A stretch of 64,000 nucleotides of DNA from Burkholderia seminalis DSM 23518 (GTDB lineage: Bacteria > Pseudomonadota > Gammaproteobacteria > Burkholderiales > Burkholderiaceae): NCBI RefSeq assembly GCF_902832885.1, contig NZ_CADFDK010000001.1, positions 248,001 through 312,000 on the forward strand, read 5' to 3'. The position numbers were made by a program, and so were the translations under genes. This document shows, piece after piece, positions 3,354-18,365 of this stretch. The notes beneath the pieces are model-generated. The model saw only the letters and a list, made by a program, of their open reading frames with translations, did no database searches and was not told where the DNA came from. The first letter of the stretch is position 1. Each line of letters begins with the position of its first letter.

Positions 3354-4973
<1,620 letters not shown>

Positions 4974-11319: not shown

Positions 11320-11808
11320 TCAAACGGGCGAGCTCCGCGCGTCGCCCAGGGATGCCGACCGTTCGATCGCCCGTCGCGCGACGTCGCGCACGCCCGCGCT
11401 CATCGGCACGTCATCACGATCGAGCTCGTCGAGGGCGAACCAGCGCGCATCGAGCGCATCGTCGCCGGCGGCGGGCGTGCCGCGCAGCCATCGGCACAGC
11501 ACCGCGACCATGATGAAATGCTGGCGCACGGCGCCGCCCGCATCGTAATCGAACGCATCGAGCGCGGTAAAGGCGTCGAGTGCATCGACCGCGACGGTCG
11601 TCTCTTCGGCGATCTCGCGAACGACCGCGTCCGCGATCGGTTCGCCCGGTTCGATCTTGCCGCCGGGGAACCCCCAGCAGCCCGCGTCGGGCGGATTCGC
11701 GCGGCGCACGAGCAAAACGTCGCGTTCGCGCAGCACGATGCCGATCACGGCGGGAATGGGGCGCACGGTTGCGGCGGCGCCGATTGCGGAGTGTGCCGAT
11801 CCGGACAT
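11320..11808 (-). CDS. NUDIX hydrolase
   Basis: A 162-residue NUDIX pyrophosphohydrolase. The 23-residue NUDIX box begins GGKIEPGEPIADAVVREI (residues 49-66) and continues AEETTV, with the metal-binding REIAEE intact. NUDIX enzymes cleave nucleoside diphosphates linked to another moiety; this one resembles the ADP-ribose/MutT-like group. The ATG at 11808 is eight bases from the end of the upstream dehydrogenase gene, so the two are cotranscribed. A longer frame through this region is an artefact of the shared reading frame upstream. Confidence 0.88.
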   Translation of the reverse strand: MSGSAHSAIGAAATVRPIPAVIGIVLRERDVLLVRRANPPDAGCWGFPGGKIEPGEPIADAVVREIAEETTVAVDALDAFTALDAFDYDAGGAVRQHFIMVAVLCRWLRGTPAAGDDALDARWFALDELDRDDVPMSAGVRDVARRAIERSASLGDARSSPV

Positions 11809-11816
11809 GGGCGCGC

Positions 11817-12695
11817 CTATGCGTCGGTGCGTCGTTCGATCGCGCGAATCACCGCGACCATGTCGTCCGATCCATGTCCGGCTTTTTCGGTCTCGCCGTA
11901 AAGCGCGTGACAGACGTCGAGCAGCGGCGACGCGATGCCGGTGCCGCGCGCGGATTCGGCGACGAGGCGCGCGTTCTTCAGCACGTCGGTGATCGCGGCC
12001 TGCACGGAGAAATCTTCCGCGACGAGCTTGCCGAGTTTCACGCGCGATACGTCGCTTGCCATCGGGCCGGCGTTCAGCACGTCGGCGAAACGTGCGAGAT
12101 CGATACCGTGACGTTGTGCGAAATGCGTGGCTTCGGTCAGGCCGGTGACCATCGTGATCAGGAACAGGTTGACGGCCAGCTTCATCGTCAGCGCCGACGG
12201 CACGTCGCCGCACACGAAGCTGTCGCGGCACAGCGGCTTCACGAGCGCGCGCACGGCGTCGACGTCGTCCGGCGCACCGGCCAGCATCACGACGAGCTGG
12301 CCCGCTTCGGCCGGCTTGCGCGACCCCGATACGGGCGCCTCGACGTAGCGGCCCGACGCGGCGGCGATTTCATCGGCGAGCGCACGCGAATACCCGGGTG
12401 CGTTGGTGCCCATGTTCACGATCGTGTGGCCGCCGACGCGCGCGGCAAAACCGGGTGTGCCGCGCGCGAGGACGGCGTCGATCGCCGCGTCGTTCGCGAG
12501 CATCAGGATCACGGTGCGGCACGCCGCGAACACGTCGTCGACGTGCTCGGCGATGCGCGCGCCGGCGGCGCGCAGCGCATCGTCGTTGCCGCGCGACCGG
12601 CTCCACGCGACGAGCGGCGTGCCGGCACGCGCGAGATTGAGCGCCATCGGCGTGCCCATCACGCCGAGGCCGATGAATCCGACTGCGGTTTGCAT
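11817..12695 (-). CDS. beta-hydroxyacid dehydrogenase (3-hydroxyisobutyrate dehydrogenase family)
   Basis: A 292-residue NAD(P)-dependent oxidoreductase. GFIGLGVMGTPMALNLA is the N-terminal dinucleotide motif and EAPVSGSRKPAEAGQL is the substrate-binding signature. TMKLAVN supplies the catalytic Lys, and the all-alpha C-terminal domain follows. Members oxidise 3-hydroxyisobutyrate, tartronate or similar hydroxyacids; the family also includes glyoxylate and succinic semialdehyde reductases. It is in the leftward operon behind the DUF971 gene (97-base gap), so its substrate may relate to the AprAB-like complex. Confidence 0.85.
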   Translation of the reverse strand: MQTAVGFIGLGVMGTPMALNLARAGTPLVAWSRSRGNDDALRAAGARIAEHVDDVFAACRTVILMLANDAAIDAVLARGTPGFAARVGGHTIVNMGTNAPGYSRALADEIAAASGRYVEAPVSGSRKPAEAGQLVVMLAGAPDDVDAVRALVKPLCRDSFVCGDVPSALTMKLAVNLFLITMVTGLTEATHFAQRHGIDLARFADVLNAGPMASDVSRVKLGKLVAEDFSVQAAITDVLKNARLVAESARGTGIASPLLDVCHALYGETEKAGHGSDDMVAVIRAIERRTDA

Positions 12696-12792
12696 GTCCT
12701 TGCTCCCACGGTGGGTGGAGACGTTCGTGGGCGTCAGTATCGCAGCGTTTCCACACGCGTGCCATCGCGCCCGCGAACCCGCGCGGCGGCTG

Positions 12793-13071
12793 CTAGTCGA
12801 TGTCCGCCAGATAGGGCCACGGATAGATGCCGCGCGCGTGGCCGTCGCCGAACATGAAGCGCACGCCGTAGCCGGCCGGCTCCACGCCTTCGAGCGTCAG
12901 GTCGGGCCGGGCATCGACGCGACCGCCGTCACGCCGGATGCGTCGGCATGCCGCGCACGGGCATTCGGAGCGCAATCGCGCATAGCCGATGCGCTGCGTT
13001 GCGCCGTCGGGCCAGCGCAGCATGAGCGCGCCTGCCGGATGGTCGAGCGCGATTTCGGTCGGCGCGATCAT
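12793..13071 (-). CDS. DUF971 / GBBH-like N-terminal domain protein
   Basis: A 92-residue single-domain protein. The pattern LRWPDGATQRIGYARLR, then ECPCAACRR and the C-terminal GIYPWPYLADID match DUF971, the fold of the gamma-butyrobetaine hydroxylase N-terminus. The CPCAAC cysteines may bind zinc. DUF971 domains are also found fused to Mrp/ApbC-type iron-sulfur carrier proteins. Here the gene is coupled by a four-base ATGA overlap to the HEAT gene and lies two genes from a ferredoxin, so a helper role in Fe-S cluster or flavoprotein assembly is a reasonable guess. Confidence 0.85.
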   Translation of the reverse strand: MIAPTEIALDHPAGALMLRWPDGATQRIGYARLRSECPCAACRRIRRDGGRVDARPDLTLEGVEPAGYGVRFMFGDGHARGIYPWPYLADID

Positions 13072-14063
13072 CGGGGCGCGTCGCCGATTTGCCGGATCGC
13101 GATCCGTACGGCCTTGCGGACTTCCGGGTCGCGATCCTCGAGCACATCGTTCAGGGCGGGCAGCGTCGCAGGGTCGCCCAATTCGCCGAGCGCGAGCGCG
13201 GCTTCCTTGCGCAGATTGCTGATCGCATGCGAGAGCAGCGCGACGACGGCCGGCGCCGCAGCCGCGTCGCGCAACTGCCCGAGTGCGCGTGCTGCGCGCA
13301 GACGCACCTGCCAGTAGTCGTCGTCGAGCGCGGCGACGAGCGGCTCGCGTGCCAGCGTCACGCGCAGCTTGCCGAGCGTGGTGGCTGCTTCCTCGCGTAC
13401 TTGCCATGCGCGATCGCGCAGCGCGGCGAACAGCGCATCGATGACGGCCGCATCGCCGGCTGCCGCGAAGCCGATCGAGCCGACCGCGGCACGTCGCACG
13501 TCCGCATCGGTATCGGCCGTCGCGATGCGCGCGAGCGGCGAAAGCGCGCGCGGATCCTTGAGCCAGCCGAGCACCGTGACGGCTTCGGCGCGCACGGCGG
13601 GGGGCTCGGCCTCGAGCGCATGCAGCGCGGGTGCGAACGCACCGGGGTCGCGCAACTCGCGCAATCCGCGCAGCACGGCACGGCGCACGAACGGCTCGGG
13701 CCGGTCGGCCCAGCGGCACAGTACGGGACCCGACGCCGGATCCTTCAGTTCGGACAGGCTCTGGGCGGCGGCGGCGCGCACGTCGTCGTCCGGATCGAGC
13801 AGCGCGCCGCACAGCGCCTCGACGACGTCGGGCTGTTCCCACGCACCGAGTACGCGGGCGGCTTCGCCGCGCACGTCGGCCGACGGGTCGGTGCGCAGCG
13901 CGGCGACGAACGCCGGCACGCGTTCGGGATCCTCGAGATCCGCGAGTTCGAACAGCGCGACGCGGCGCACGGATGCGTCGGACGCGGCGAGGCGGGCGAC
14001 GAGCGCGGCCGGGTCGCGCTCGTGTGCGCCGGGTAGCGGTGCGGCGAAAGGAGAGTCGGTCAT
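13068..14063 (-). CDS. HEAT-repeat protein
   Basis: A 331-residue protein built almost wholly of HEAT/PBS-lyase-like helical repeats of about 31 residues. Examples are DPERVPAFVAALRTDPSADV, LRELRDPGAFAPALHALEAE and LGELGDPATLPALNDVLEDR. At least eight repeats can be counted. There is no signal peptide or catalytic motif. Such solenoids act as scaffolds or as accessory factors for cofactor-bearing enzymes. It lies between the AprB-like ferredoxin (31-base gap) and DUF971 (overlap), so it probably serves the same complex. Confidence 0.88.
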   Translation of the reverse strand: MTDSPFAAPLPGAHERDPAALVARLAASDASVRRVALFELADLEDPERVPAFVAALRTDPSADVRGEAARVLGAWEQPDVVEALCGALLDPDDDVRAAAAQSLSELKDPASGPVLCRWADRPEPFVRRAVLRGLRELRDPGAFAPALHALEAEPPAVRAEAVTVLGWLKDPRALSPLARIATADTDADVRRAAVGSIGFAAAGDAAVIDALFAALRDRAWQVREEAATTLGKLRVTLAREPLVAALDDDYWQVRLRAARALGQLRDAAAAPAVVALLSHAISNLRKEAALALGELGDPATLPALNDVLEDRDPEVRKAVRIAIRQIGDAPR

Positions 14064-14094
14064 GAGCGAAGAAAAAGGGCGTTGACGTACGCGG

Positions 14095-14340
14095 TCAGCG
14101 CAGCAGGTAAGGGATCTCGACCTTGACTGCGCCGGTCGGGCAATCGCGCTCGCACGGCATGCAGTACCAGCATTCGTCGAACTGCATGTAGGCCTTGCCC
14201 TTGGTCACGTCGATCGCGAGCAGGTCGAGCGGGCACACGTCGACGCAGACGGTGCACCCCTTGTCGGCGATGCAGCGTTCCTCGTCGATCGTCACGGGTG
14301 CGCTGCTGCGCAGGAAGATGTCGTGCGGGGTATGGGGCAC
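14095..14340 (-). CDS. 2x[4Fe-4S] ferredoxin, AprB-like
   Basis: An 81-residue electron carrier with two cluster motifs: C-x5-C-x2-C-x3-CP (residues 23-37) and CWYCMPCERDCP (57-68). The order CPLDLLAID, KGKAYMQ, CWYC resembles the beta subunit of dissimilatory APS reductase (AprB) more than simple bacterial ferredoxins, but AprB's long C-terminal tail is missing. The start is GTG at 14340, with AAGGA eight bases upstream and 11 bases after the flavoprotein stop. It probably passes electrons to or from the adjacent flavoprotein. Confidence 0.85.
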   Translation of the reverse strand: MPHTPHDIFLRSSAPVTIDEERCIADKGCTVCVDVCPLDLLAIDVTKGKAYMQFDECWYCMPCERDCPTGAVKVEIPYLLR

Positions 14341-14351
14341 GGTAGGGTTCC

Positions 14352-16091
14352 TTAGAGGGCAGTCGCGAGCGCGGCCGGTTCGCGGATGCGCAGATTCGTG
14401 TAGGCACCGCGATCGTCGTCGGCCAGCGGCACGACGTACGGTTCGACCGGCCGCTTCTCGCTGCGCATCGCACCATCGGCATCCTTGCGCAGCCACGTGT
14501 GGCAGAACCATTCGGCGTCATCGCGATGCGGGAAGTCGACACGATGGTGGTACAGCCCCCAGCGGCTCTCGGTGCGGAACAGCGACGCGCGCGCGGCCAT
14601 TTCCGCGCAGTCGCGGATCGCGCGCACTTCGGCCGCCCGCATCAGTTCGTGCGGATGACCGGCCTTGATCTGTTCGATATCCTCAGTAATATCGTCAAGG
14701 CGTTGCAGCCCGATTTCCATCTTGCGCGTCACCTTCGGCGGTTGCAGGTAATCGTTCACCATGCGGCGCAGCTTGTATTCGACCTGCGCCGGCGCGAGGC
14801 CGTGTTCGCGCAGAAGCGGGGCGATCACGCGGGCGCGTTCGGCCTCGACCTGTTCGTCGTCCACCGGCGCAAGGTCGCGTCCGGCCACGTCGTCGGCCGC
14901 GTTCTGCCCGGCGAACCAGCCGTACGTGAACGCGCCGAGCATGTAGTTGTGCGGGACGGCCGCCATGTCGCCGGCCGCGTAGAGCCCCGGCACGGTCGTC
15001 TCCGCGCGTGCGTTCACGTACACGCCCGATGCGCTGTGACCGCTGCAGAAGCCGATCTCGGAGATGTGCATCTCGACCATCTGGCTGCGGTAGTCGGTGC
15101 CGCGCCCCGCGTGGAAGCGGCCGCGGCTCGGCCGTTCGTTCGTATGCAGGATCTGCTCGATGGTCTGGATCGTTTCTTCCGCGAGATGGTCGAGCTTCAG
15201 GAACACCGGGCCGTTGCCGCTCTGCAGTTCCTGGTAGAACTCCCACATCATCTGGCCGCTCCAGTAGTCGCATTCGATGAAGCGCTCGCCCTTGCCGTTC
15301 GCGGTGAAGCCGCCGAGCGGGCCCGTCACGTACGCGCACGCCGGGCCGTTGTAGTCCTTGATCAGCGGATTGATCTGGAAGCATTCGAGATTCGCGAGCG
15401 CGGCGCCCGCGTGATAGGCCATTGCGTAACCGTCGCCCGCGTTGGTCGGGTTCTCGTAGGTGCCCATCAGGTAACCCGATGCCGGCAAGCCGAGGCGGCC
15501 GGCCGCGCCGCAGCAGAGGATCACGGCCTTCGCGCGGATCACGTGAAACTCGGCGGTGCGGCAGTCGAAACCGAGCACGCCGCTTGCGCGGCCCTGCGTA
15601 TCGGTCAGCACGCGCGTCGCGACGATCCGGTTCGTGATCGCGATGCGCGCGCGCTTCAGTTGCCGGTACAGCACCTTCTTGATGTCGTGCCCCTCCGGCA
15701 TCGGCAGCACGTACGAGCCCATGTGATGGACCTTCTTCACCGCGTAGTCGCCGGTGCCGTCCTTCTCGAACTTCACGCCCCAGCGGTCGAGCTGCTCGAT
15801 CGTCGTGAAGCTGTGCGCCGCGTACGCGTACACGGCTTCCTGGTCGACGATGCCGTCGTTGGCGATCGTGATTTCGCGCGTGTACTGTTCGGGCGTCGCA
15901 TGACCGGGGATCACCGCGTTGTTCAGGCCGTCCATGCCCATCGAGATCGCGCCGCTGCGCTTCACGTGGGCCTTCTCGAGCAGCAGCACACGCAGGGACG
16001 GGTCGCGCTCCTTCGCCTTGATCGCCGCCATCGGCCCGGCCGTGCCGCCGCCGACCACGACGACGTCGTATTCGTGAACCTGGGTTGTCAT
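14352..16091 (-). CDS. AprA-like FAD-dependent oxidoreductase (fumarate reductase/APS reductase alpha family)
   Basis: A 579-residue flavoprotein. VVVVGGGTAGPMAA near the N-terminus is the FAD dinucleotide fold. EKAHVKRSGAISMGMDGLNN resembles the equivalent EKAxVERSGAVAQG segment of AprA. GLYAAGDMAAVPHNYMLGAF is the second FAD motif and carries a His at the place of an AprA active-site His, as far as I recall that family. Full AprA is longer (about 620-660 residues). It is coupled to the GntR gene by a four-base overlap and followed by the AprB-like ferredoxin. The substrate is unknown. Nothing in the window indicates dissimilatory sulfur metabolism, so a different organic substrate is likely. 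Confidence 0.85.
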   Translation of the reverse strand: MTTQVHEYDVVVVGGGTAGPMAAIKAKERDPSLRVLLLEKAHVKRSGAISMGMDGLNNAVIPGHATPEQYTREITIANDGIVDQEAVYAYAAHSFTTIEQLDRWGVKFEKDGTGDYAVKKVHHMGSYVLPMPEGHDIKKVLYRQLKRARIAITNRIVATRVLTDTQGRASGVLGFDCRTAEFHVIRAKAVILCCGAAGRLGLPASGYLMGTYENPTNAGDGYAMAYHAGAALANLECFQINPLIKDYNGPACAYVTGPLGGFTANGKGERFIECDYWSGQMMWEFYQELQSGNGPVFLKLDHLAEETIQTIEQILHTNERPSRGRFHAGRGTDYRSQMVEMHISEIGFCSGHSASGVYVNARAETTVPGLYAAGDMAAVPHNYMLGAFTYGWFAGQNAADDVAGRDLAPVDDEQVEAERARVIAPLLREHGLAPAQVEYKLRRMVNDYLQPPKVTRKMEIGLQRLDDITEDIEQIKAGHPHELMRAAEVRAIRDCAEMAARASLFRTESRWGLYHHRVDFPHRDDAEWFCHTWLRKDADGAMRSEKRPVEPYVVPLADDDRGAYTNLRIREPAALATAL

Positions 16092-16858
16092 CGCTGTTTC
16101 CTTGCAGATTTGCGTGGTTTTTGCCGGTCGATGCGCAGCCGGTACTGGAATGCGTCGCCACGGAAGTAGAGGTATTCGTAGTCGATCGGGGCGCCCGACG
16201 CGTCGTGCGTGAGGCGCTCGATGCGCAGCACGGGGCTGCCGTCCTCGACGTGCAGCGCATCGACGATCTCGTCGTCGGCGAGGATCGCGTCGATCGACAC
16301 GTCGGCATGGCCGAGCGGGATGCCGCAGTCGTTTTCCAGCACGAGGAAGATGTCGCGGGTCGCGAGATCGGCGCCCGCGAGGCGCTTGCCGAGCGCTTCC
16401 GGCACCCAGGTCTGTTCGAGCGACACCGGTTCGCGGTTCAGCAGCCGCACGCGGTGGATCTCGACGAGCGGCGCGCCTTCCGGCACGTTCAGCTTGGTCG
16501 CGAGATGGCGGTCGGCTTTCACGGTGCGCAAGCTGCGCAACTGGTTGACGATCTCGTAACCCATCGACGACATCGCCTCGGCGAAGCCCTGCAGCGACGT
16601 CACGTTCTGGAACGCCTTCGGCTTCGACACGAACGTGCCCTTGCCGTGCAGCTTGAACAGCAGTCCTTCCTTCTGCAGGTCGCCGAGCGCCTGGCGCACC
16701 GTGATGCGGCTGACGTCGAACATCGCGCACAGCTCGTGCTCGGACGGCATCCGGCTGTGCGGCGCATAGGTGCCGTCGAGAATGCGCGCGCGCAGCATGT
16801 CCTTGATCTGTACGTAGAGCGGGGCCGCCGACAGCGGCACGACGTTGGATGCGGTCAT
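16088..16858 (-). CDS. GntR-family regulator, HutC/UTRA type
   Basis: A 256-residue regulator with an N-terminal winged helix (about residues 12-75; MPSEHELCAMFDVSRITVRQAL) and a C-terminal UTRA ligand domain. It is the first gene of the leftward AprAB-like operon, overlapping the flavoprotein start by four bases. A palindrome of the kind bound by this subfamily lies 7 bases ahead of its own start codon, implying autoregulation of the whole operon by a small ligand, perhaps the pathway substrate. Confidence 0.92.
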   Translation of the reverse strand: MTASNVVPLSAAPLYVQIKDMLRARILDGTYAPHSRMPSEHELCAMFDVSRITVRQALGDLQKEGLLFKLHGKGTFVSKPKAFQNVTSLQGFAEAMSSMGYEIVNQLRSLRTVKADRHLATKLNVPEGAPLVEIHRVRLLNREPVSLEQTWVPEALGKRLAGADLATRDIFLVLENDCGIPLGHADVSIDAILADDEIVDALHVEDGSPVLRIERLTHDASGAPIDYEYLYFRGDAFQYRLRIDRQKPRKSARKQR

Positions 16859-16865
16859 CGATCAA

Positions 16866-16879
16866 CTTGTTATGACAAG
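16866..16879. promoter_or_regulatory. putative GntR/HutC operator
   Basis: CTTGT-TATG-ACAAG is a perfect 5-bp-arm palindrome immediately upstream of the GntR start and in the divergent region shared with the MFS gene. HutC-subfamily regulators typically bind TTGT...ACAA-type sites. The rest of the 289-base gap (16859-17147) shows no gene. Confidence 0.55.
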
Positions 16880-17147
16880 ATGGACCGAGTGTAGTCAGCG
16901 TGGCCGCGCGGCCAAACCAACCATTTCCGATAACGAATTTCCGATTCCGGCAAAGCGGGGCGAACGCGTGACCGGTTCGTTGCCGGCCGCGCGGATTGGC
17001 CGACAATGAAAAATCGCCGGCTCGTGACCCGCGGATGTCGATTTCCCGATGATTCGCCCGTCGTATCCATGTCGACCGGGTATGGCGCCGCACATGCGGC
17101 CTGTACCCGGTTTCCGAGGATGGCCGAAACGGACAAGGAGGCGCCAA

Positions 17148-18365
17148 ATGACGGATTCCCGTTACCGCTGGGTGATCGTCGCCGCGGGCGGCCTGATGGG
17201 CTGCGTCGCGATCGGCGCGATGTTTTCCCTGCCGGTGTTCCTGCGCGCGATTGCGCGCGACACGGGCTGGTCGATGACCGGCATTTCCACGGCGATGACG
17301 CTCGGCTTCATCGCGATGGCCTTCGCGAGCATGGCGTGGGGCAGCCTGTCGGACCGGATCGGCACGCGGCCGGTCGTCCTCGCGGGCGCGGTGCTGCTGT
17401 CGGCGAGCCTCGCGCTGGCGAGCCGCGCGCCGTCGCTGTTCGCGTTCCAGCTGGCCTTCGGCCTGGCCGTCGGCGGCGCGACGGCCGCGATATTCGCGCC
17501 GATGATGGCGTGCGTGACGGGCTGGTTCGACACGCACCGCAGCCTCGCGGTGTCGCTCGTGTCGGCCGGCATGGGAATGGCGCCGATGACGATGGCGCCG
17601 CTCGCCGCGTGGCTCGTGTCGGTGCGCGACTGGCGCACGTCGATGCTGCTGATCGCCGGGCTGGCGGCCGTCGTGATGATTCCGGTGTCGCTCCTGGTAC
17701 GGCGGCCGCCCGCGCTCGACCCTGCCTCCGCGCACGCCGCGCCTTCGGCTGCCGGCGCACCGGCGGCGATGTCGGTCGCGGATGCGCTGCGCTCGCCGCA
17801 GTTCATGATCCTGCTGCTGACCAACTTCTTCTGCTGCGCGACGCACTCGGGCCCGATCTTCCACACGGTCAGCTACGCGGTCACGTGCGGCATCCCGCTG
17901 ATCGTCGCGGTGTCGATCTACAGCGTCGAGGGGCTCGCCGGGATGGGCGGCCGGATCGCGTTCGGCATGCTCGGCGACCGCCTCGGCGCGAAGCGCATGC
18001 TGGTGGCGGGGCTGCTCGCGCAGGCGCTCGGCGCGCTCGGCTATTACTTCGTGCGCTCGCTCGACGGGTTCTACGCGGTCGCGACGCTGTTCGGCTTCAT
18101 CTATGCGGGCGTGATGCCGTTGTATGCGGTGCTCGCGCGCGAGAACTTCCCGCTGCGGATGATGGGCACCGTGATCGGCGGTTGCGCGATGGCCGGCAGC
18201 CTCGGGATGGCCGCGGGCCCGGTCGCCGGCGGCCTGATCGTCGATACGTTCGGCAGTTACGGCTGGCTGTACCTCGGTTCGTTCGCGATCGGCCTCGGCG
18301 CGTTCCTGATCGCGATGATGTTTCGCCCGTTCGCGAAAACGCGGCCGGAAACGGCGGCCGCTTGA
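17148..18365 (+). CDS. MFS transporter
   Basis: A 405-residue major facilitator with twelve predicted membrane helices. SLSDRIGTRPVVLAG between helices 2 and 3 is the MFS motif A, and MLGDRLGAKRMLVAG is its second-half counterpart. The ATG at 17148 follows ACAAGGAGG; an earlier in-frame ATG has no ribosome site. The protein resembles the monocarboxylate/oxalate-formate-like antiporter group. It is divergent from the GntR-AprAB-like operon, so it may import or export that operon's substrate. Confidence 0.88.
   Translation: MTDSRYRWVIVAAGGLMGCVAIGAMFSLPVFLRAIARDTGWSMTGISTAMTLGFIAMAFASMAWGSLSDRIGTRPVVLAGAVLLSASLALASRAPSLFAFQLAFGLAVGGATAAIFAPMMACVTGWFDTHRSLAVSLVSAGMGMAPMTMAPLAAWLVSVRDWRTSMLLIAGLAAVVMIPVSLLVRRPPALDPASAHAAPSAAGAPAAMSVADALRSPQFMILLLTNFFCCATHSGPIFHTVSYAVTCGIPLIVAVSIYSVEGLAGMGGRIAFGMLGDRLGAKRMLVAGLLAQALGALGYYFVRSLDGFYAVATLFGFIYAGVMPLYAVLARENFPLRMMGTVIGGCAMAGSLGMAAGPVAGGLIVDTFGSYGWLYLGSFAIGLGAFLIAMMFRPFAKTRPETAAA

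Follow-up and report, generated by a model that had tools for sequence, protein, structure and literature searches.

A stretch of 64,000 nucleotides from Burkholderia seminalis DSM 23518 (contig NZ_CADFDK010000001.1, positions 248,001 to 312,000; hereafter, the window) carries a compact set of genes for a flavoprotein (FP) that binds flavin adenine dinucleotide (FAD), a small ferredoxin (Fd), a HEAT-repeat protein and a DUF971 protein, headed by a GntR/UTRA regulator. We propose that this module serves the acquisition of sulfur from a sulfonate or a close organosulfur compound, a reading to which we assign a probability of roughly 0.55. It is suggested by an SsuA-like importer encoded within the module in most relatives, asfAB genes next to it in a few, other sulfonate genes nearby, genes for electron supply, the grouping of FP with reductases of S(VI) compounds, and a palindromic site upstream of the regulator. 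A preliminary description of the locus had envisaged an oxidoreductase acting on an organic or sulfur-containing small molecule. The sulfonate context favors the sulfur part of that proposal; a carboxylic acid substrate is disfavored, its only pointer being a transporter gene confined to Burkholderia.

Conservation of the gene set

All eight genes named in the preliminary description were recovered, at about the same coordinates and in the same families, by profile scans of the window proteins against Pfam and NCBIfam, with NCBIfam scores compared to curated cut-offs. The genes of the module lie on the minus strand. The GntR/UTRA (HutC-type) regulator (16088-16858) combines a GntR helix-turn-helix with a UTRA domain (Pfam, 77 and 134 bits, respectively) and remains under every NCBIfam cut-off shown, including that of the HutC equivalog (143 bits against 220). 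It is followed by FP (14352-16091), a full member of NF006131 (PRK08275; 1148 bits against a cut-off of 587, over residues 1-573 of 579); by Fd, an 81-residue ferredoxin with a GTG start (14095-14340; Pfam Fer4_7, 36 bits); by the HEAT-repeat protein (13068-14063; HEAT_2, 196 bits); and by the DUF971 (GBBH-like_N) protein (12793-13071; PF06155, 68 bits). The tight leftward series described earlier is indeed there, with two four-base overlaps (regulator/FP and HEAT/DUF971) rather than several; the other gaps, up to the last gene of the series, measure 11, 31, 97 and 8 bases.

At least 588 relatives of FP were confirmed in named bacterial genomes, and the best 80 loci, a sample that leans to close relatives (Burkholderiaceae, Pseudomonas), were analyzed. 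Three of these (L041, L065 and L091) run off the contig before the HEAT gene, and the gene counts are therefore based on 77 loci. The conserved unit is regulator-FP-Fd-[SsuA-like ATP-binding cassette (ABC) trio]-HEAT-DUF971. All 77 loci keep the order FP, Fd, HEAT; 75 have the UTRA regulator upstream of FP, 52 carry the ABC trio, placed between Fd and HEAT, and 69 have DUF971 after HEAT. The gene set is far from a chance association, and the linkage of HEAT and DUF971 to the flavoprotein across genomes, anticipated in the preliminary description, holds. In the neighbor clustering, antisense frames were also grouped and were disregarded.

The module extends well beyond close relatives. Ten FP relatives that are 57-88% identical to FP come from several proteobacterial classes, one cyanobacterium and one actinobacterium. 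Distant plasmid-borne relatives (FP identity of 63-69% in alphaproteobacteria, Acidithiobacillus and cyanobacteria, and 57% in Tsukamurella) have DUF971 and the ABC trio at other places, and those on alphaproteobacterial plasmids mostly have a Crp/Fnr gene nearby in place of GntR. Relatives of the HEAT protein occur on 42 plasmid records, and all 40 of the 40 listed records also hold FP; plasmids of plant symbionts are among the carriers. In samples of 61 genomes from the genus and 299 from the phylum, 42 and 15, respectively, have a member of NF006131 over the cut-off. The module of Nostoc edaphicum is interrupted between FP and Fd by five genes (L103:11707-14888), which encode a methyltransferase, two hydrolases of the HAD type, a GNAT protein and a VOC/FosA-like protein.

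An SsuA-like transporter and sulfonate genes nearby

The preliminary description, confined to the window, missed two features that emerge from the relatives, namely, the SsuA-like ABC trio and the link to asfAB. FP and Fd share one cluster with an SsuA-like ABC transporter in the 52 loci mentioned above. The best NCBIfam match of its binding protein is the SsuA family (112-134 bits in the three proteins scanned, each below the SsuA cut-off), and its best match in the PDB is SsuA (2x26). An additional SsuA/TauA-like binding protein is encoded in 14 of the 80 loci, compared to about 3.3 expected, and five of the seven such proteins scanned pass a curated cut-off. Furthermore, genes for TauE/SafE exporters adjoin the module in Aquabacterium and, as sulfite or sulfate exporters, in two cyanobacteria (Pseudanabaena and Leptolyngbya).

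The module binding protein (L015:12049-13476 and homologues) ends in a NosL-like domain, an odd fusion of a binding protein to a copper-chaperone-like fold. Among nine proteins scanned, this domain was over the Pfam cut-off in four, below it in four and not found in the Tsukamurella protein; the NosL-like stretch contains no invariant Cys or Met in an alignment of 14 rows. Separately, a family 2A encapsulin cargo cysteine desulfurase is encoded less than 5 kb from FP in four of the 80 loci, all Paraburkholderia-type (L032:13411, L035:13376, L038:14962 and L046:6926). The L038 copy scores 961 bits, and the other three are 82-94% identical to it. In Azospirillum, a gene annotated as a member of this family lies at a distance of 7 kb from asfB, which hints that sulfur storage and sulfonate use may be connected.

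Relation to the asfAB system

The asfRABC genes are described as the cluster by which P. putida S-313 desulfurizes aromatic sulfonates, in which asfAB, encoding a reductase and a ferredoxin, are needed for aromatic but not for aliphatic sulfonates, and the regulator is of the LysR type (PMC4267179). The module resembles this cluster in combining a FAD flavoprotein of the fumarate reductase superfamily and a small 2[4Fe-4S] ferredoxin with, in relatives, an SsuA-type ABC transporter. It differs in that its flavoprotein belongs to another group, the asf ferredoxin has another spacing and a longer tail than Fd, no HEAT or DUF971 gene is listed next to asfAB in three annotated asf loci, and the regulator at the window module is of the UTRA type instead of LysR.

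For a direct comparison, we used C. metallidurans CH34, whose AsfA and AsfB are given as Rmet_4334/5 (PMC2864759). The CH34 record is unannotated, and 905-920 kb was left out of the reading; interpolation between six tauD tags (PMC2864759) and six TauD places puts Rmet_4334/5 at 923.4-924.5 kb of NC_007974.2. The pair taken as AsfAB, a 549-residue flavoprotein and a 111-residue ferredoxin beside an SsuA-family ABC set, lies at 927.9-929.9 kb, a position equivalent to tags 4338-4340 and shifted by 4-5 tags from the interpolated value. Matches to NF006131 on this replicon lie at 895, 929 and 794 kb, of which the 929-kb match is nearest to Rmet_4334/5 and the 895-kb match has beside it genes for an iron-sulfur protein that, by eye, looks like SdhB and a NuoF-like protein. 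A 49-kb CH34 stretch at a guessed position contained no FP relative, and the module binding protein found no counterpart in a search of the megaplasmid that was run without a positive control. Relatives of the CH34 pair precede ABC transporter genes in Azospirillum and Paracoccus and lie near an SfnB-family gene in Rhizobium.

It is conceivable that FP simply is the AsfA of P. putida S-313, so that the system would already be known under another name; the order FP-Fd-binding protein equals asfA-asfB-asfC, and 38 of the nearest 80 named relatives belong to Pseudomonas. We nevertheless consider this identity unlikely. The CH34 AsfA and AsfB, as mapped by interpolation, belong to another family (56 bits for AsfA against NF006131), no frame on the CH34 megaplasmid reaches the NF006131 cut-off, and S-313 has a LysR regulator where the Pseudomonas FP modules have GntR. 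FP and the CH34 AsfA are 23% identical over 418 residues, and in our tree the AsfA rows (CH34, Azospirillum, Paracoccus and Rhizobium) and FP form separate groups, but a joint group of the two is not rejected statistically (p 0.070; see below). The CH34 results led us to drop an equation of FP with AsfA that had relied on gene order only.

The two systems do meet in a few genomes. On plasmid C of S. americanum, an asfAB-type pair, 74% identical to a Rhizobium pair, is followed on the same strand, about 136 bases away from match to match, by DUF971-FP-Fd-HEAT; after HEAT come a Crp gene on the opposite strand and the ABC trio. The arrangement recurs in S. fredii NXT3, where asfA gives a partial match only (L100:6645-8524). 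In one further genome (G289), AsfB and the end of an AsfA gene (57% identity), truncated where the contig stops, are 16 kb away from the FP module, and several ABC sets of the SsuA/NitT type lie in between.

Placement of the flavoprotein

FP has a FAD_binding_2 and a Succ_DH_flav_C domain (Pfam), and NF006131, as well as the related NF010374 (PRK13800), is named fumarate reductase/succinate dehydrogenase flavoprotein subunit. We found nothing in our data that speaks for the activity implied by this name. Membership in the fumarate reductase family proper was rejected given that FP scores 171 bits against sdhA_frdA_Gneg, short of the cut-off of 567.3; the module is probably misnamed. Among solved structures, FP is closest to the alpha subunit of the Methanothermococcus phosphoadenosine phosphosulfate (PAPS) reductase (8a8o, 197 bits), followed by AprA, the flavoprotein of dissimilatory adenosine phosphosulfate (APS) reductase. 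The AprA-type motifs reported earlier, EKAxxxRSGA and AAGDxxxxPH, are present in FP as EKAHVKRSGA and AAGDMAAVPH.

In an unrooted maximum likelihood tree of 36 rows, in which the PAPS reductase is represented by a long, partial row, the FP rows form one group with support of 94/97. A branch with support of 99/96 separates FP, the APS reductases and the PAPS reductase from the SdhA-like and AsfA rows, with the proviso that the approximately unbiased (AU) test retains FP joined to AsfA (p 0.070) and FP joined to the SdhA-like rows (p 0.099). The resemblance to the AprA family seen in the preliminary description is consistent with these results, and a position of FP next to AprA is likely, not proven.

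The resemblance does not extend to all of the conserved residues. FP retains the positions equivalent to N74, K267 and D268 of AprA (A. fulgidus numbering), and its His352 aligns with a His, presumably H398, that is present in 10 of 10 AprA, in the Methanothermococcus thermolithotrophicus PAPS reductase (MtPAPSR) and in 5 of 5 SdhA-like proteins and, hence, is not AprA-specific. At the positions of Arg265 and Trp234, both of which we take to be catalytic, 11 of 11 FP have Leu and Tyr, respectively, whereas Arg and Trp are found in 10 of 10 AprA and in MtPAPSR. Gln145 of AprA (10 of 10) is Val in 11 of 11 FP and Ser in MtPAPSR. Since all 11 FP deviate at the Arg and Trp that never vary in the AprA set, FP, judged by its residues, is AprA-like and not an APS reductase. 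The same holds for the comparison with dissimilatory AprAB as a whole: shared are the full-length AprA-like sequence, the FAD motifs, the retained residues and a two-cluster ferredoxin partner, whereas the three replacements and an Fd far under the aprB cut-off set the module apart. As the preliminary description indicated for the window, there is no dsr context: in the host genome, no dsrA was found over the cut-off (one fragment of 42.7 bits against 392.85), with qmo and sat not searched for.

MtPAPSR, an AprA-type enzyme put to assimilatory use, with a beta subunit of 104 residues in the 8a8o complex, raises the question of whether FP could be a variant (P)APS reductase of assimilatory sulfate reduction. 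FP lies on the same side of the tree, keeps the AprA residues listed above and has MtPAPSR as its best solved match. Yet MtPAPSR retains the proposed catalytic residues of AprA (PMC10322725), including the Arg that is Leu in FP; FP scores 177 bits against TIGR02061 (AprA), short of 641.75; Fd scores 39.9 bits against TIGR02060 (AprB), short of 135.65; and a dedicated importer for APS makes little sense. The residue changes and the family scores led us to reject FP as an APS or PAPS reductase, and such a variant appears very improbable.

Partner proteins and electron supply

Fd has eight Cys, sufficient for two [4Fe-4S] sites, and a DECW(Y/F)C motif and a PYLLR-like tail are kept in 11 of 11 aligned sequences; this alignment is without AprB, none being found in the short AprA loci. 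Residues 23-324 of the HEAT protein match the C-terminal part of NF010374, which is a family of FP-HEAT fusions. In Tsukamurella, FP and HEAT form a single 893-residue protein with C-terminal HEAT repeats that is a full member of this family (1568 bits); the NF010374 profile found no protein over the cut-off in 41 relatives. An Mrp/ApbC-type ATPase gene follows HEAT in place of DUF971 in three cyanobacteria, and plant HCF101 contains a DUF971 domain. For these two reasons, DUF971 is a candidate iron-sulfur assembly factor.

Genes for the electron supply adjoin the module in three lineages: FdxA and ferredoxin-NADP reductase follow it in Methylobacterium, FdxA and a GltD/PyrK-like protein are encoded at the A. 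caldus module, and FdxA at the Variovorax module. This proximity suggests that electrons enter from NAD(P)H, with FP working as a reductase.

A reductase could work on a substrate of its own or merely pass electrons on. FP and Fd might be an electron chain that feeds a separate monooxygenase, SsuD-like or aromatic, which would cleave the carbon-sulfur bond; the role in sulfonate use would be the same. Such a role is proposed for AsfAB in the asf literature, the host genome encodes two SsuD over the cut-off, and monooxygenases dependent on flavin mononucleotide are found near some modules. On the other hand, no cluster present in at least five genera was recognized as an oxygenase (the rarer clusters were not all identified), and FP keeps long invariant stretches across eleven rows together with AprA-like residues, as one would predict for an enzyme that has a substrate of its own. 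The solved enzymes closest to FP, moreover, act on their substrates at the FAD (PMC10322725). We regard the electron chain as a possibility that falls well short of even odds, and the same tentative standing applies to the notion that FP acts directly on the substrate.

A putative operator

The palindrome CTTGTTATGACAAG (16866..16879) lies seven bases before the start codon of the regulator gene. Its exact form, CTTGT-N4-ACAAG, occurs once in the window, with 0.01 occurrences expected. Upstream of the regulator genes of 79 relatives, it is exact in 37, and the number rises to 71 when a single mismatch is allowed; the background, in random 160-bp windows drawn from these loci, is 0.8%. The site, which we take to resemble HutC operators, is likely the operator of the UTRA regulator, and it fits the earlier suggestion of an oxidoreductase under the control of that regulator. 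The regulator-MFS intergenic region also contains a perfect ten-base inverted repeat, CCGCGCGGCC and GGCCGCGCGG, 71 bases apart (16904-16994). A scan for promoters and terminators gave no signal above chance.

Accessory genes of the Burkholderia loci

The host assembly comprises 8.0 Mb in 55 contigs, and among the best 80 loci, five from Burkholderia spp. (among them B. lata, B. cenocepacia and B. ambifaria; FP identity of 94-96%) are the closest. Downstream of DUF971 on the minus strand, the window encodes a beta-hydroxyacid dehydrogenase (11817-12695; PF03446, 118 bits), which reaches no NCBIfam cut-off, and a NUDIX hydrolase (11320-11808; PF00293, 82 bits). Divergently from the regulator, the plus strand encodes a transporter of the major facilitator superfamily (MFS) with a likely start at 17148 and an end at 18365 (MFS_1, 178 bits); it is nearest to the lactate and oxalate/formate-type families (L-lactate MFS, 156 bits, below the cut-off of 320). 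The preliminary description placed the dehydrogenase and NUDIX genes in the operon and listed the MFS gene as divergent from it. Relatives of the dehydrogenase and the NUDIX protein were found in three of the 77 loci, all from Burkholderia, and those of the MFS transporter in five, which are the five Burkholderia loci (L019-L023), with none in the other 72. This distribution excludes the three genes from the core, and the dehydrogenase and NUDIX hydrolase are probably not core parts of the module.

These genes bear on the idea that FP is a fumarate-reductase-type enzyme acting on a sulfur-free organic acid, aided by the dehydrogenase, the NUDIX hydrolase and the lactate/oxalate-like transporter. 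The database name, the domain composition of FP, the monocarboxylate-type MFS transporter of Burkholderia and the AU test, which retains FP with the SdhA-like rows, are all compatible with such a function. However, relatives of the supposed helpers were found in Burkholderia alone, the importer in the relatives is SsuA-like, and the recurrent neighbors are sulfonate genes, all of which makes this explanation quite improbable.

A tentative mechanism

Several observations weigh against the assignment of the module to sulfonate sulfur acquisition. The binding protein remains under the SsuA cut-off of 163.5 bits in the three cases scanned, and a nitrate-transport protein ranks third among its solved matches. 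An extra sulfonate-type binding protein is missing from 66 of the 80 loci; the 14 loci that have one represent about eight arrangements by our own grouping (Poisson p ~0.02), and the count used queries already noticed in these same loci. A near relative of the CH34 AsfA was found in only one of the 22 FP-carrying genomes searched (G289, 57%), and the host genome lacks a CH34-type asfA, the best match there being FP itself (26%). The window locus, like 25 of the 77 relatives, has no ABC trio. Of the 79 relatives compared for the palindrome, many are closely related, the AU test retains the rival tree groupings, and the module of Rhizobium acidisoli has genes for thiamine synthesis (thiC, thiO, thiS and that of thiazole synthase) immediately upstream (L099:4011-7782). 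Among the papers listed in literature searches, judged mostly by titles and the starts of abstracts, there was no growth, expression or enzyme datum for any NF006131 member and no naming of the FP family or the gene set, and a query for PRK08275 gave no result. Finally, desulfonation is described as oxygenolytic, with AsfAB as electron carriers (PMC4267179), which argues against direct action of FP. The rarity of asfA (1/22), the 66 loci without an extra binding protein and the use of previously noticed queries are the reasons why we set the odds at 0.55 instead of 0.6. The probabilities of the alternatives overlap with this value given that both the electron chain and the already known AsfA share the sulfonate role.

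If the module does serve sulfonate use, its parts could work as follows. The UTRA repressor would control the operon, probably opening it under sulfate limitation. The sulfonate would be imported by the SsuA-like ABC transporter in most relatives seen, and by another importer at the window locus. Electrons from NAD(P)H would pass through a housekeeping ferredoxin and reductase, encoded next door in a few relatives, to Fd and then to the FAD of FP, which would handle the sulfonate, with the sulfur leaving as sulfite for assimilation. The HEAT protein may hold FP and its partners together, and DUF971 may help to load the iron-sulfur clusters. In its most specific form, which is more speculative and less likely than not, this scheme would make the clade beside the APS and PAPS reductases of aerobic bacteria and cyanobacteria an oxygen-independent, ferredoxin-driven sulfonatase. 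Such an enzyme would use its FAD to release sulfite reductively from an organosulfonate that has been imported, with a dedicated HEAT scaffold and cluster loading by DUF971/Mrp, as a second desulfonation route beside asfAB.

Implications

More than 95% of soil sulfur is organic, and aromatic sulfonates are described as open to some bacteria only; the SsuD monooxygenase is credited with the cleavage, and asf is seen as an additional kit for electron supply (PMC4267179). The widespread module described here is currently annotated as fumarate reductase. A correct name would add one more to the markers for sulfonate use and point to an enzyme that can be tested, with the (P)APS reductases as its nearest solved relatives.

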